From the NCBI RefSeq assembly GCF_006874645.1, contig NZ_CP030082.1, positions 2,418,001 to 2,482,000 on the forward strand: a DNA stretch of 64,000 nucleotides, read 5' to 3'. Shown in pieces: positions 6,369-59,693 of the stretch. Origin of the DNA: Bdellovibrio sp. ZAP7 (lineage in GTDB: Bacteria; Bdellovibrionota; Bdellovibrionia; Bdellovibrionales; Bdellovibrionaceae). Every line of letters starts with the position of its first letter. Within the stretch, counting starts at the first letter, position 1. The notes under the pieces were generated by a model. It made no database searches. It had not been told where the DNA came from and worked only from the letters and a program-made list of their open reading frames with translations. The position numbers were made by a program, and so were the translations under genes.

Positions 6369-6414
6369 GTCGGCTGACGCGGCATGCATCCTTGCATTTT
6401 GCCGCGAAGCCGAC
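6369..6414 (+). other. Long intergenic hairpin before the 6429 gene
   Basis: GTCGGCT-GA-CGCGGCA (6369-6384) pairs with TGCCGCG-A-AGCCGAC (6400-6414), a 14-bp interrupted stem. There is no U-tract. It lies between the DUF2259 gene and the next start. An in-frame ATG at 6382-6386 falls inside this stem, which argues for translation starting at 6429. Confidence 0.6.
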
Positions 6415-6428
6415 AAATATATCCCACC

Positions 6429-7145
6429 ATGACTGAAACCACTGCCCCTCAAGCAAAACCTGAAAATAGCTGGCTGAACTTAATTTTTAACATTCTGTTG
6501 CCGGTTCTAATCCTGAACAAACTGACTAAGCATATCGGCCCACTGAATGCTTTGGTTTTGGCACTGGCTTTCCCGTTGATCTACGGCATCTACGATCTTT
6601 TGAAGCGCAAAAAGGTAAACGCGTTCTCTATCCTGGGATTATTGAACGTGGGTTTGACTGGTGGACTTGCGGTCATTGGAATTCACGGATTCTGGTTTGC
6701 GGTCAAAGAAGCCGCGTTCCCGTCTCTGGTAGGTCTTTTCGTCTTGGGATCTGCATTTACTAAAAAACCATTCATCGAAAGCCTGTTCCTAAACCCCGGC
6801 GTGATGAAAGTAGACTTGCTGGAAGAAAAATTAAAAGAGCACGGCAAACAAGCCGAGTTCCACGATCACATGAGAAAAGCAACAATGTGGCTCTCTCTCA
6901 GCTTCGCATTCAGTGCGGTGCTAAACTTCGTGTTGGCAAGAAAGATCTTCCTAGATATCGACTCAACATTGGCCGCCGATGCCCAATCCATAATCCTAAA
7001 CGAACAAATCGCAAAAATGACCACATGGTCCATGGCCATCATCATGGTCCCATCCATGATCTTCCTATTGGGCATCTTCTGGTACCTAATGAAAGGCGTA
7101 AAAGAATACGCCGGCCTAAGCACCGACGAACTCCTAAAATCCTAA
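6429..7145 (+). CDS. VC0807-like integral membrane protein
   Basis: 238 residues with about five or six hydrophobic segments. The segment WLNLIFNILLPVLILNKLTKHIGPLNALVLALAFPLIYG and the following DLLKRKKVNAFSILGLLNVGLTGGLAVIG resemble proteins of the VC0807/intracellular-septation-A-like group. The role is unknown; transport or envelope maintenance is speculative. I chose the ATG at 6429 because the upstream in-frame codons fall in a stable hairpin, although no good ribosome site is visible. The stop codon is followed at once by a dispersed repeat (7146-7162). Confidence 0.7.
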   Translation: MTETTAPQAKPENSWLNLIFNILLPVLILNKLTKHIGPLNALVLALAFPLIYGIYDLLKRKKVNAFSILGLLNVGLTGGLAVIGIHGFWFAVKEAAFPSLVGLFVLGSAFTKKPFIESLFLNPGVMKVDLLEEKLKEHGKQAEFHDHMRKATMWLSLSFAFSAVLNFVLARKIFLDIDSTLAADAQSIILNEQIAKMTTWSMAIIMVPSMIFLLGIFWYLMKGVKEYAGLSTDELLKS

Positions 7146-7162
7146 AAAAGGGAACTGTTACC
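7146..7162. repeat. Dispersed repeat A, copy 1 (RAYT-associated 17-bp motif)
   Basis: AAAAGGGAACTGTTACC occurs here between two convergent stop codons. The same 17 bp bounds the RAYT transposase gene on both sides, at 56697-56715 and 57413-57431. All three copies abut or overlap stop codons. Confidence 0.75.
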
Positions 7163-7163
7163 T

Positions 7164-7895
7164 CTAAAAATCTCCGGATTCGAAATTTCCGGGAGGTGGA
7201 GGTGGCGGAGGGATAAATTCGCTGCCATTACTGAAATCACCAAAGCCCGTAGGCATTGGTGGAGGTGGTGGCGGTGGTACATCGCCAAAGTCCTCTGGGG
7301 ACACGTTCGGTGCTGGCACGTAGCCATCGCTAAAGTCATCAAATGTTGGTGGAGGTGGAAATGAAGAGTTTCCTGGGTTGAAACTGCCGCTGCTTCCCCC
7401 GCCGCCGCGACCCGTTCCTGAACTGCCCACAGTCGAAGTTCCGAAGTGACGTTTGGCGAAATCAAAACGTGGACGTTCTTGATCAAGCCCCAACTCTTGC
7501 GCCAAAGTCGGTAGACCTTTCGCTTCGCGGTCCAAAGCCTGATTCTTTGCGGCTTGAGCTGAAAACGCCTTACGAGTCTCTTCGTAGGCTTGCTCTTCAG
7601 ATTTTTTTTGCTTTTCCCAAGCGCGGTACTCGGGACTATTTTCGTCCATCACCGGTTCCGCTTTAGGTTTGTTCTTTTTGTAAGCAGCCAGATCGCGGTC
7701 TTTTTCAGACGCCCACTGCTCTTGTTCCTCGAGGTATGCGCGCTTGCCACCCTCGCGGGCTTCGTCGAAACGGCTGAACTTACTTTGATGCTCAGCAAAA
7801 CCACGCAGACGTTCCTCTTCCGCATCCATAGCGTGAGCTACAACGGAGGAAAAACTGAGACCTAAAATAAGCAGTAAACAGCGAGGAGGTTTCAT
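7164..7895 (-). CDS. Exported charged/proline-rich protein of unknown function
   Basis: 243 residues. The signal peptide (about 1-22, VVAHA) leads into a highly charged, helix-prone region at about 24-135, rich in Glu, Lys and Arg and probably coiled coil. A Gly/Ser linker follows at about 150-172. The low-complexity C terminus repeats a unit of poly-Pro followed by a short FGDFSNG/FDDFSDG-type segment three times (PPPP, PPPPPPP, PPPPPPP). The composition suggests a cell-envelope or secreted scaffold, but there is no recognised domain. It is convergent with the membrane protein at 6429-7145 and divergent from sohB. Confidence 0.75.
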   Translation of the reverse strand: MKPPRCLLLILGLSFSSVVAHAMDAEEERLRGFAEHQSKFSRFDEAREGGKRAYLEEQEQWASEKDRDLAAYKKNKPKAEPVMDENSPEYRAWEKQKKSEEQAYEETRKAFSAQAAKNQALDREAKGLPTLAQELGLDQERPRFDFAKRHFGTSTVGSSGTGRGGGGSSGSFNPGNSSFPPPPTFDDFSDGYVPAPNVSPEDFGDVPPPPPPPMPTGFGDFSNGSEFIPPPPPPPGNFESGDF

Positions 7896-55297: not shown

Positions 55298-56701
55298 ATG
55301 CTTGAACAACTCGTGCTTCGTCAAAAGTCATTCGCCCAACACGCCCGTACTGAATCCTGGCACCAACGCTATGATTATCTTGAATCCTTGAAAAGCATGA
55401 TCACCGATCACCAACAGGAACTGTGCAAAGCTTTATACGAAGATTTTAAAAAGCCTGAGTTAGAATCCCTGGCTACTGAGATCATGCCTCTTTTAAAAGA
55501 AATCCGTTTTGCGCAAAAGCATTTGAAAAAATGGATGAAGCCGCAACGGGTTTGTACTCCGCTGCTTTTATTTGGATCTAAAAGTTACACGCGCTTTGAG
55601 GCCTTAGGGTCTTGCCTGATCATTTCACCGTGGAACTATCCTTTGTATTTAACGATCGCCCCCCTGGTTTCGGCCCTTGCTGCGGGGAACGCAGCGGTGA
55701 TTAAACCTTCCGAGTACGCCCCTCACACCAGCCGTTTGATGCATTCTTTATTATCGAAGTACTTTAAGCCTGAACAGGTATCGGTCATCGAAGGTGGTCC
55801 TGAAACCACGACCGAACTTTTAAAGCAGGCCTTTGACCACGTCTTTTTCACCGGCAGTACCGAGGTTGGCAGAATTATCATGAAAGGTGCCGCTCACAGC
55901 CTGGCCCGAGTCACTTTGGAATTGGGTGGCAAGTCACCGACCGTTATTGATAATACAGCGAACCTAAAACTTGCGGCGCAAAAGATCATCTGGGCGAAAT
56001 TCGTGAATGCAGGACAGACTTGTGTGGCTCCGGACTACCTGTTTATTCAAGAAAGCATCCATCACGAATTCCTGCAAACACTTAAAGTGCAACTTCAAGA
56101 GAGTTTCGGAAGCAGCAAAGATGACGTGAAATCATCCAAGAGCTTTGCCCGCATCATCAATCGTCGCCACACGGATCGCCTTAAAGGCTTACTTGAAGAT
56201 GCGATCAGTAACAGCGCAAGCGTGGTTGCCGGAGGTGAAGTAGATCTTGAACAAAACTACGTTGCCCCGACCCTGCTTGATAACGTTGATCCGCACACCA
56301 AAGTGATGAATGAAGAGATCTTTGGCCCGATTTTACCGATCTTGAAGTTTAAAGACATCAGCGAAGTCGTTCACTTTATCAACGAACGCCCGAAGCCTTT
56401 GACGATTTATTGCTACTCCCATTCCGAGCACAACATCAAAAAACTGATGAAGGAAACAAGTTCGGGAACACTATCGGTTAATGATTCATTGATCTCGTTA
56501 TTGAATCCCCACCTTCCGTTTGGCGGCGTGGGCGCAAGTGGTCTGGGTGCTTACCATGGGTACCATGGCTTTGAGACCTTCTCCCACAAAAAGGCGATCT
56601 TTAAACAAGGCTTCGCCGGAAGATTGATGGCCATCATCTATCCTCCGTACAACCAGACCAAACTCGATCTATTAAAGCAAATCATCCGTTTTACTGGGTA
56701 A
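55298..56701 (+). CDS. Aldehyde dehydrogenase, ALDH3 type
   Basis: 467 residues. Oxidises aldehydes to acids with NAD(P). Family features are CLIISPWNYPLYLTIAPLVSALAAGNAAVIKPSEYAP, FFTGSTEVGRIIMKGAA, TLELGGKSPTVID (catalytic Glu), AGQTCVAPDYL (catalytic Cys), EEIFGPILPI and PFGGVGASGLGAYHG. The short N terminus and hydrophobic C-terminal end (FAGRLMAIIYPPY) resemble coniferyl/fatty aldehyde dehydrogenases. No clear ribosome site is seen before ATG 55298. Its stop codon lies inside repeat A. Confidence 0.9.
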   Translation: MLEQLVLRQKSFAQHARTESWHQRYDYLESLKSMITDHQQELCKALYEDFKKPELESLATEIMPLLKEIRFAQKHLKKWMKPQRVCTPLLLFGSKSYTRFEALGSCLIISPWNYPLYLTIAPLVSALAAGNAAVIKPSEYAPHTSRLMHSLLSKYFKPEQVSVIEGGPETTTELLKQAFDHVFFTGSTEVGRIIMKGAAHSLARVTLELGGKSPTVIDNTANLKLAAQKIIWAKFVNAGQTCVAPDYLFIQESIHHEFLQTLKVQLQESFGSSKDDVKSSKSFARIINRRHTDRLKGLLEDAISNSASVVAGGEVDLEQNYVAPTLLDNVDPHTKVMNEEIFGPILPILKFKDISEVVHFINERPKPLTIYCYSHSEHNIKKLMKETSSGTLSVNDSLISLLNPHLPFGGVGASGLGAYHGYHGFETFSHKKAIFKQGFAGRLMAIIYPPYNQTKLDLLKQIIRFTG

Positions 56702-56715
56702 CAGTTCCCTTTTCG
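56697..56715. repeat. Repeat A, copy 2: left boundary of the RAYT unit
   Basis: GGTAACAGTTCCCTTTTCG. The exact inverse is at 57413-57431, on the other side of the transposase gene. It includes the ALDH stop codon (56699-56701). Confidence 0.85.
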
Positions 56716-56783
56716 GAACACGCCGCTTCATTTTCAATCGGTTCATAGATGGGATCGGCGCTGAGTTTGCAATCCACTATTGC

Positions 56784-57434
56784 ATGCCTAGAAAAACATT
56801 AATTTTAACAGACGATTTCCCCTACCACGTTACAAACCGTTCAAATAATCGAGAGAAATTTTATCTAGAAAATTACATTTTGTGGACTATCTTTCTGGAT
56901 TGTTTCGAAGAACTAAAAAAACAATACACCTGCGAAATTCACGCATTTGTTTTAATGTCCAACCACTATCATCTCATAATCAGCACGCCGAAAAGAAATC
57001 TAGGGGAAGCCATGAAGTATCTCCATCGGGAGGTCGCTCGCAAAGCGAACAAACAATCCGGACGCATCAACCATTTTTTTGGGGCGCGATACAAATGGTC
57101 CGTAATAAACGCAGAAGCCTACTATTGGAACTGCATTAAATATGTTTTTAGAAACCCTGTACGAGCTGGTATCTGCACACGGGTGGATGACTATCGATTC
57201 TCTTCGCTCAATAGCCAACCAGCATCTTGGAAATGGAATATGTGTGATTGGTTTCACCGAGATCAGCCTCAAATCACGCCTGATCATGATTGGCTGAACG
57301 AACCATTTCATTTAGAGCTGGAAGAAATAATTCGACTGGGACTAAGACGAAGGGAGTTTTCACCTCCGCCAGATTCCAAGAAAAAGAGAAGTTATTTAGA
57401 CGATCTGCAGTACGAAAAGGGAACTGTTACCTGA
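56784..57434 (+). CDS. REP-associated tyrosine transposase (RAYT, Y1_Tnp)
   Basis: 216 residues. The Y1/HUH transposase fold is recognised from YHVTNRSNNREKFY, the region HAFVLMSNHYHLIIS with the HxH-type metal site, NLGEAMKYLHREVARKANKQSGR, FFGARYKWSVINAEAYYWNCIKYVFRNPVRAG with the candidate nucleophilic Tyr in YYWNC/IKYV, and PVRAGICTRVDDYRFSS. RAYTs are host-resident enzymes that process single-stranded REP palindromes. It is flanked by perfectly inverted 19-bp repeats, the right one covering its own 3' end. No passenger gene. The frame is intact. Confidence 0.92.
   Translation: MPRKTLILTDDFPYHVTNRSNNREKFYLENYILWTIFLDCFEELKKQYTCEIHAFVLMSNHYHLIISTPKRNLGEAMKYLHREVARKANKQSGRINHFFGARYKWSVINAEAYYWNCIKYVFRNPVRAGICTRVDDYRFSSLNSQPASWKWNMCDWFHRDQPQITPDHDWLNEPFHLELEEIIRLGLRRREFSPPPDSKKKRSYLDDLQYEKGTVT
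57413..57431. repeat. Repeat A, copy 3: right boundary of the RAYT unit
   Basis: CGAAAAGGGAACTGTTACC, inverse of 56697-56715. It includes the last codons of the RAYT gene and, on the minus strand, the stop of the antiporter gene (57427-57429). Confidence 0.85.
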
Positions 57435-59646
57435 GATCCAGGATGCGGGAGCGGTCGCCTACGATCCACAGAAGATCATCGACCTGCAGGATTTCGGCAG
57501 AGTCGGGGTTTAAAATACGGCGACCTTGGCGTTCAATACCGACCACTAAGCCATGGGTTGTTTCTCGAAGCCCGCTATCCCGAATGCTTTTCCCTAAGAA
57601 CGCTGATTTGTCTGTTAGCAGATATTTTTCCAATGAGTATTCCGAAATTTCTGATTCCAGAGTTTGGTAATCCTGTTCTGCATCGATGAATTCTTTAAAT
57701 ACTGCGAGCTGAATATCATTTCCAATCACGAATACGATATCTTGAGGCATGAACATCACGTCTGCACCGGGCGCCATGATCTTTCTGCGTCCGCGCTCGA
57801 TCAAGGCCACTGTCACACCAAAACGTTCACGAATGGAGAGCTCGGATAAAGGCATTCCCACATAGTGAGCTTCTGCTGGCACACGGAATTCAGTCAAATG
57901 GGCATCCCAAGGAGCCAAGGCTTGGCTATGAGTTTTTGGTGCCACCTTATGAACATCTTCGGTTAAGTTTGAAATAAAACGATTTTCAAACCACTGATAA
58001 ATCGCCCGCAGCCTTGTGGAAAGCACATAACCGACAACGACCGCCATCCATGCAGTGATTCCCAAAGCCCACCCCAGTGGAACAAATTGCGCAACCATTG
58101 CGCCGATCAATCCCACGGCAACCATAATTCTAGAAACCACAAAGACATAGTTCTGACTTCCGCGAGAGCCGCCGGCGACCAGGCTATCAAATTGCTTCGT
58201 CCGACCAAAAGCCAATGCCCATAAGAACGGTGAACTTAAAATCAAAGTTGCCGTTAAAGTCAGAAACTTTGCAGAGCCCTCTTCGACTTGGTGATTTAAT
58301 AAGTAAGGCAATGTCACTCGGCCCATCAGCAAAAACACGCCAATCACGATCACCACATTTAAAAAAATCTTAAAGATGTAAGAACGAACTTGGTCGCGGG
58401 ATTCTTTGTGCGCTGTCATTGCGAAAGAAAACATCGAATAGCGATCTAAAGAGTCAATAAGGTCTCGTGGCAATTTTCTTTCAAGCAAACCATATGCTCC
58501 ATCAGCCATACGAATCATAAATGGAGTCGTAAATGCTGTCACCACACTCACAGATACCGCTAAAGGATAGAGCTCGGGTCGAACAACTTTAAAGCCCACA
58601 CCCACCGTCGCAATAATGAAAGAAAACTCTCCAATTTGGGACAGACTCATACCCGTCTGCAAACTGGACTTCAATGTTTGACCGGATAAAACACTTCCGA
58701 CGGTCACGCCCAAAGTTTTTCCCATAAGCACCAACGCTGACAAGAGCAGAATCACCTGCCAGTGGGCTGTGATCACATCCGGATCAATCAACATCCCCAC
58801 CGAGATAAAGAACACAGCAGAGAATAAAGTTTTGATGGGATTCACCAAGTGATGAATACGCTCACCTTCGATCGTTTCAGCTAAGATCGATCCCGTGATG
58901 AAGGCACCCAAAGCTGCGGAGAAACCCACCTTCACCGCAAACACCACCATGGCAAGACACAAGCCTACCGCCACAACCAGAATCGTTTCTTCATTCAATA
59001 ATTTTTGTGCACGCTTCAGTGCCGTCGGAAGCCAAAAGATCCCCACCACAAACCACAGGGATAAATAGAACGCGAGTTTAAGGAATGACAGCAACATATC
59101 ACTGCCCGCGAACTCCCGAGTCAGCGCAATTGAAGTTAGGAATACCAGCAGCAATACCGCCACCAGATCCTCGATAACCAAGACGCCCATAACGATACTG
59201 ACGAATTTCATATTCTTGAAACCCATCTCTTCGATAGTACGCATAGAGATCGACGTCGAAGAAATCGCAAGAATTCCGCCCAGGAACAGGCAGTCCATCA
59301 AATCCCAACCCAATAGCTTCCCCGTCGTAAAACCGATCAAAGTCATAAAGCCGACTTCGAACAACGCCGTCACACCAGCCGAGCCCCCCACACGGAAAAG
59401 CTTTTTAAAACTGAACTCCAGGCCCAAGGCGAACAAAAGAAAGATCACCCCGATGTCAGCCCAAAGCTGAACACCTTCTGCGCTGCTGACAGTTCCAAAC
59501 AGTCCGACCTTAGGTCCGATCAAAAATCCGGCAACCAGATAACCTAAGACCACAGGTTGATTTAATCTTTTAAAGAGAAGAGTCACGATACCCGCGGTAC
59601 CTAGAATAAGAGCCAAATCGCTGATCATTGCCGGAAGACTATGCAT
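57427..59646 (-). CDS. CPA2-family monovalent cation/H+ antiporter with RCK-C domains (Kef-like)
   Basis: 739 residues from ATG 59646. About 12 membrane segments with the KefB/KefC-type core (ADIGVIFLLFALGLEFS, AISSTSISMRTIEEMG, VGFSAALGAFITGSILAE, FFISVGMLIDPD, SLSQIGEFSFIIA). The cytoplasmic C terminus carries two TrkA-C/RCK-C modules (about 620-670 and 690-739) but no TrkA-N NAD-binding domain, unlike KefC. Probably K+ or Na+ efflux with small-ligand gating. Upstream TTG and downstream ATG (59628) are alternative starts; no clear ribosome site. Convergent with RAYT. Confidence 0.9.
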   Translation of the reverse strand: MHSLPAMISDLALILGTAGIVTLLFKRLNQPVVLGYLVAGFLIGPKVGLFGTVSSAEGVQLWADIGVIFLLFALGLEFSFKKLFRVGGSAGVTALFEVGFMTLIGFTTGKLLGWDLMDCLFLGGILAISSTSISMRTIEEMGFKNMKFVSIVMGVLVIEDLVAVLLLVFLTSIALTREFAGSDMLLSFLKLAFYLSLWFVVGIFWLPTALKRAQKLLNEETILVVAVGLCLAMVVFAVKVGFSAALGAFITGSILAETIEGERIHHLVNPIKTLFSAVFFISVGMLIDPDVITAHWQVILLLSALVLMGKTLGVTVGSVLSGQTLKSSLQTGMSLSQIGEFSFIIATVGVGFKVVRPELYPLAVSVSVVTAFTTPFMIRMADGAYGLLERKLPRDLIDSLDRYSMFSFAMTAHKESRDQVRSYIFKIFLNVVIVIGVFLLMGRVTLPYLLNHQVEEGSAKFLTLTATLILSSPFLWALAFGRTKQFDSLVAGGSRGSQNYVFVVSRIMVAVGLIGAMVAQFVPLGWALGITAWMAVVVGYVLSTRLRAIYQWFENRFISNLTEDVHKVAPKTHSQALAPWDAHLTEFRVPAEAHYVGMPLSELSIRERFGVTVALIERGRRKIMAPGADVMFMPQDIVFVIGNDIQLAVFKEFIDAEQDYQTLESEISEYSLEKYLLTDKSAFLGKSIRDSGLRETTHGLVVGIERQGRRILNPDSAEILQVDDLLWIVGDRSRILDLR

Positions 59647-59693
59647 ACATAAAGCGTACGCTCTAGGAACCCACCGAGGCAACGGGAGGAGCT

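Follow-up and report, generated by a model that had tools for sequence, protein, structure and literature searches.

The 735-bp unit between an aldehyde dehydrogenase (ALDH) gene and a Na+/H+ antiporter gene of Bdellovibrio sp. ZAP7 is very probably an autonomous REPtron/TIRtron, whose RAYT (REP-associated tyrosine transposase) would have dispersed about 20 copies of the repeat, either solo (REPs) or in inverted pairs of 53-72 bp (REPINs), and would keep them in good repair. The unit lies in a window of 64,000 nucleotides (contig NZ_CP030082.1, positions 2,418,001 to 2,482,000), to which the coordinates in Table 1 refer. Genes were taken from our own ORF and codon-usage calls.

Table 1. Features of the RAYT element, its neighbouring genes and the solo repeat copy in the window
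Feature	Position	Strand	Remarks
Whole element, 735 bp	56697..57431	.	Missing at the orthologous site of sister species G022
Left 19-bp terminal inverted repeat (REP unit), GGTAACAGTTCCCTTTTCG, read outward-in	56697..56715	-	Holds the ALDH stop TAA 56699-56701
Right 19-bp terminal inverted repeat (REP unit)	57413..57431	+	Exact inverse of the left repeat; encodes the RAYT C-terminus; holds the antiporter stop
RAYT gene, 216 aa, predicted Y1/HUH tyrosine transposase	56784..57434	+	PF01797, NF047646, PDB 4er8; stop TGA 57432-57434 outside the repeat
Aldehyde dehydrogenase (ALDH)	55298..56701	+	Pfam PF00171; left repeat gives its stop; RAYT-free orthologues end differently
Na+/H+ antiporter with TrkA-C domain	57427..59682	-	Pfam PF00999, PF02080; right repeat gives its stop
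Solo 17-bp copy	7146..7162	+	Occupies the space that separates two convergent stops; without counterpart at the G022 orthologous site

The initial annotation had described a RAYT gene framed by perfect 19-bp inverted repeats, the left one containing the ALDH stop and the right one the antiporter stop and the RAYT C terminus. Both repeats were found to be exact and in place, and the left one does enclose the ALDH stop. The right one encloses the antiporter stop (57427-57429, TTA on the + strand) and the last RAYT residues, YEKGTVT, but the TGA of the RAYT itself is provided by the flanking DNA. The ALDH and antiporter stops are both the TAA of GGTAAC. The 17-bp copy reported between two convergent stop codons was also recovered: it begins right after the TAA of an ORF at 6384-7145 (+) and ends one base short of the stop of the convergent ORF at 7164-7895 (-). 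In the window as a whole, the 17-mer has 3 matches at up to two mismatches, versus 0.01 expected from shuffles.

Sequence comparisons support the identification of the encoded protein as a RAYT, to which a repeat family of its own belongs. Y1_Tnp (PF01797, E 1.7e-9) was the sole domain found by the Pfam search of the 216-aa protein, with no C-terminal HTH domain. Its best curated family was NCBIfam NF047646 (REP_Tyr_transpos, E 2.2e-21), with 76.3 bits, short of the curated cut-off of 80; a 51% relative at L040 reached 82.8 bits against the same model. A weak match to the NCBIfam IS200 family NF033573 was also obtained, and the sole PDB relative was the E. coli TnpA-REP structure 4er8 (E 2.6e-5). 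The HUH motif reads N-H61-Y62-H63. In the alignment with 4er8, Y120, which precedes the FRNPV motif (Y120-VFRNPV), occupies the position of the tyrosine that is conserved in E. coli TnpA-REP. The protein displays the Y1 transposase fold with an HUH motif and a putative catalytic tyrosine that is expected of a RAYT.

The initial annotation had proposed counting the motif genome-wide. The genome (4,123,562 bases, one contig) holds 23 exact copies of the 17-mer, versus 0 of the reversed 17-mer used as a control, together with two imperfect copies, of which one has a single mismatch and the other two. A transposase gene lying between two inverted copies of a repeat, the latter being dispersed within the same genome, corresponds to the definition of REPtrons and TIRtrons. 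The anatomy of the copies was described on 131 distinct exact copies from seven genomes. Some are solo and many form inverted pairs 36 bp apart, that is, 53-bp palindromes; others span 72, 86 or about 100 bp. A gapless alignment was obtained for thirty of the 53-bp elements, taken from five genomes. Their outer 17 bp are nearly invariant and their inner eight base pairs covary, with 49 double changes versus 17.4 in shuffles and a covariation score of 0.171 versus 0.059; sliding the pairing partner lowered the pairing to 38-48%. The 53-bp pair is predicted to fold at -43.6 kcal/mol as RNA and -29.4 as DNA, and the 17-mer by itself has almost no fold. Inverted REP pairs making hairpins of this kind have the structure of REPINs. 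A sequence that is fixed at the ends, with pairing alone kept in mid-stem, would be expected of a hairpin whose ends are read by an enzyme; palindrome-correcting mutation could alternatively keep the inner arms matched.

Several features of individual copies were recorded along the way. Inner arms are mostly of two types, GGAATGC and GTACTGC, which match the RAYT element at its left and right end. At the orthologous G000/G021 sites L001/L073, L003/L077 and L020/L083, the inner arms differ on both sides and the outer 17-mers are identical. At L137, one repeat pair is nested in another; the result is an extended palindrome, behind which its right end is directly duplicated. Just outside the element at L020, L083, L088, L092, L093, L095, L099, L124, L126, L128 and L132, a short piece of flank together with GGTAAC occurs as a direct duplication, for example GTTACCtcaaggcgGTTACCtcaaggcg; these duplications are perhaps the footprint of nicking after GGTAAC, or of slippage. 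The sole Rfam family matched was tRNA.

Across genomes, the copy number of the 17-mer tracks the presence of the RAYT, as anticipated from the RAYT-repeat pairing suggested in the initial annotation. The 17-mer is present in 9 of the 141 genomes of the order, and one RAYT lineage (at least 53% identity) in 6 of these 9. At 59% identity or more, the RAYT was found among 60 relatives only in G021, G010 and G057, all of which bear the motif. A follow-up test of the motif-bearing G114 and G077 identified RAYTs with 53% and 54% identity, respectively. The former is framed by exact 17-mer copies and the latter by one-mismatch copies, GGTACCAGTTCCCTTTT, its C-terminus accordingly reading KGTGT instead of KGTVT. 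No RAYT of this lineage was found in the motif-bearing G011, G022 and G024, and the 15 exact copies of G024, with no near RAYT, count against the pairing. Copies decayed by one or two mismatches represent 42 of 69 in the RAYT-free G011, G022 and G024, versus 20 of 124 in the RAYT-bearing G000, G021, G010 and G057 (pooled Fisher P 3e-10, much of it due to G024; P 0.0016 without G024). In view of this co-occurrence and this decay, the REPINs may be mobilised by their cognate RAYT. Among 85,000 species genomes, the paired motif was detected elsewhere only in Bdellovibrionaceae MAGs, and it was absent from the viral contigs searched, which thus give no sign of phage carriage. At L135 (G057 C117), another RAYT of this lineage, the second one, begins directly after a tRNA-like gene; the C-terminus that its repeat encodes is present twice in tandem (YRKGTVT*SLIYRKGTVT*).

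Related systems were found beyond this lineage. Across the order, inverted repeats of one consensus, AGGTRnCnGnTnCCTTTT, flank about 25 related RAYTs. The GGT of this consensus is invariant in all 25, and repeat similarity tracks protein similarity (Mantel rho 0.41, 0 of 2000 permutations). A sister family of the same genus, GGTACGCCGTACCTTTT, has 11-36 copies in G004, G013, G015, G019, G020 and G022, all with RAYTs of that type, and 4 copies in G000. The sister species G000 and G022 are thus reciprocal, each having its own RAYT, 22-23 copies of its own repeat and 4 exact copies of the other's. Another repeat, GGGGTATCGGTCA, has 24 copies in the ZAP7 genome (around 525.6k, 660.8k, 906k, 2769k, 3040k, 3116k and 3674k; L026-L033), most of them near other Y1 transposase genes and not dispersed.

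Genomes lacking the 56.7-57.4 kb segment, a comparison that the initial annotation had proposed, did provide RAYT-free sites. The orthologous spacer is 38 bp long without repeat or RAYT in G022 (89-90% DNA identity), 45 bp in G011 and 8-17 bp in G005, G006, G015 and G023. The same gene pair flanks the RAYT in G000, G021 and G010, so that the full element seems to have been passed on vertically and not to move as a unit. Its presence in G021 and G010 also suggests that it was lost in G022 and G011, and the RAYT locus is therefore no proof of a never-occupied state. Better comparisons were given by short copies, namely L017, L003, the copy at 7146 in the window, and L001, for which G022 and G011 gave concordant results. 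At L017, CTCCT[AGGTAAC..GTTACCT]ATAAAACG corresponds to CTCCTAAAGAACG at the repeat-free site, and at the site of the window copy G022 reads TTTTTAGGATTTTAGG. In these orthologous-site comparisons the insertion joints are near-precise, with no consistent or clear target duplication. Remnants of lost copies were identified in G022 at L008 and in G021 at L015. The L019 site carries the 17-mer in G000, another repeat, GGACAAAGTAAGTCCGTACCTTT, in G022 and a near-identical form of the latter in G011, which suggests common landing sites for different REP families.

The preference for gene 3' ends, also put forward in the initial annotation, was borne out. Among the 131 copies of the seven genomes, 83 start between -5 and +12 of a stop codon, 27 supply the stop of the neighbouring gene (TAA of GGTAAC) and 17 share it (TA/G), these counts overstating independence since orthologous sites are partly common to several species. 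When copies are read as GGTAAC..., the outer neighbours are gene 3' ends in 101 of the 125 callable cases and 5' ends in 24. The proximity to stops does not merely result from short spacers, because the enrichment persists in spacers of at least 40 bp: 15 of 26 copies in tandem spacers and 24 of 29 in convergent ones lie within 12 bp of a 3' end, versus 2.7 and 6.8, respectively, expected under uniform placement. Several copies outside the -5 to +12 range stand right after a terminator-like hairpin and T-run.

A role as a shared transcription end signal, which had been considered possible, is not supported. Neither 19-bp repeat matched an intrinsic terminator, defined as a GC-rich stem followed by a T-run. 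The repeat itself contains no stem followed by a T-run, and the 53-bp pairs end in AAAAGGGAACTGTTACC, not in a T-run. At L003, L023, L076, L077 and L108, the copies are located directly behind a pre-existing terminator-like hairpin with its T-run.

We propose that a pair exposed on single-stranded DNA would fold into a long GGTAACAGTTCCCTTTT hairpin, that the RAYT would recognise its fixed 17-nt outer part and nick the ends via its tyrosine, and that the excised strand would be inserted into single-stranded DNA elsewhere, with no duplication of the target. The inserted copies would then persist mainly at gene 3' ends, through selection. The outer end (A)GGTAAC, if preceded by T, gives a stop in two of the three frames (T/AG, GG/TAA), so that a gene cut just before its stop would still terminate correctly. 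Stop-bearing termini perhaps help retention at gene 3' ends, and the bias is most simply explained by survival.

Alternatively, the RAYT or its complex could actively target stop codons, or the ends of translation or transcription, and the bias would then reflect target choice instead of survival. Copies hug the stop even in the long tandem spacers, some RAYT-free sites lie in or beside a stop codon (L003, L017), and a second family (family B) behaves alike, with 13 of 15 sense cases within -1 to +8 of the stop; in this family, the outer neighbours show no significant excess of 3' over 5' ends (15 of 24, P 0.32). Active targeting is nevertheless unlikely in our view. The sites have no common target sequence except a purine, mostly A, before GG, the 5' ends counted above make up 24 of the 125 outer neighbours, and known REPs are similarly near 3' ends (PMC3733652), for which survival in non-coding DNA is a simpler account. 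It could even be imagined that the RAYT inserts REPs by choice at stop codons, the termini rebuilding the stop, and that a repeat locked into the C-terminal codons of the transposase across an order makes an element built for harmless landing at gene ends; we regard this as improbable.

The placement at stops and between convergent genes could also be understood if the repeats were host 3'-end signals, either bidirectional terminators or mRNA-stabilising hairpins selected at stops, the RAYT being bounded by two of them merely by chance. The stable RNA hairpin of the 53-bp pair, the covariation of its stem and the pair at L020, which stands where G022 has a terminator-like hairpin, would agree with such signals. 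However, their presence is patchy (9 of 141 genomes) and tracks one RAYT lineage, no T-run follows the pair, copies are found right behind native terminators and the orthologous genes of the closest relatives have no repeat, all of which makes host signals quite improbable. Finally, the Y1_Tnp domain and the weak IS200 match would be compatible with an ordinary IS200/IS605 insertion sequence whose inverted repeats are accidental. IS200/IS605 ends are subterminal hairpins with unlike flanks and are not known to have terminal inverted repeats, and in this they differ from the element described here. Given that the best family is REP_Tyr_transpos, that a single gene copy faces some 20 gene-free copies of its ends and that about 25 relatives are framed by the same end consensus, we consider an ordinary insertion sequence extremely unlikely. 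The REPtron/TIRtron is the reading that we retain; what speaks against it is the NF047646 score below the cut-off, the missing GTAG tag, the presence of the full element at one locus in G000, G021 and G010, and the exact copies of G024.

Systems of this kind are already known; what appears to be new, as judged from the literature searched, is this family of the order, together with the consensus of its ends and the reciprocity of the sister species. The literature search found no relevant paper on REPs in Bdellovibrio, and a word search of PMC3733652 returned no mention of the genus. Our analysis thus adds an apparently undescribed REP/RAYT family of the Bdellovibrio order, with an end consensus common to about 25 transposases. 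It also provides a natural comparison, since both of the sister species, which share about 90% DNA identity, carry a RAYT of their own, have the matching repeat in expanded number and hold few copies of the repeat of the other species. With this comparison it becomes testable whether REPs are kept up solely by their own RAYT and whether stop proximity is due to target choice or survival.

TIRtrons, which are RAYT-like genes bounded by long terminal inverted repeats, and the repeat families derived from them are known from the work of Di Nocera et al. 2013 (PMC3733652). In the GTAG REPs and TIRtrons of that study, repeats may overlap the 3' end of the gene ('3'ov'), convergent REPs lie less than 20 bp from both 3' ends and REP termini give stop codons. 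The present element resembles TIRtrons/TIRYTs by its RAYT-like gene within long perfect inverted repeats, by the 3' overlap and by the singles and dimers found elsewhere, but its ends read AGGTRnC...CCTTTT where theirs read GGGGWSAS. In the classification of Quentin et al. (PMC6006769), TIRYT subclass 2.1 comprises long proteins with a C-terminal HTH domain, unlike the 216-aa protein identified here, in which no such domain was detected. No GTAG (or GT[AG]G) tag was found at the foot of the REP hairpin, the ends reading (A)GGTAAC and those of relatives AGGTR, which places the family outside the GTAG superfamily. Like GTAG REPs, whose termini give TAG to flanking ORFs and which lie less than 20 bp from both 3' ends when convergent, the copies provide stops, but GGTAAC gives TAA or TA/G. 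The REPIN-RAYT/REPtron systems of E. coli and Pseudomonas (PMC3116915, PMC8266576, PMC6006769) have hairpins with a GTAG foot and doublets of two separate REP hairpins, whereas the doublet here is one continuous hairpin with 25-bp arms and its outer 17-mer alone is nearly without fold. Both have one RAYT per repeat type, intergenic REP singles and inverted doublets, and decay where the RAYT is missing. As gene-free derivatives with the ends of a Y1 transposase element, the dispersed copies are finally comparable to the MITEs of IS200/IS605.
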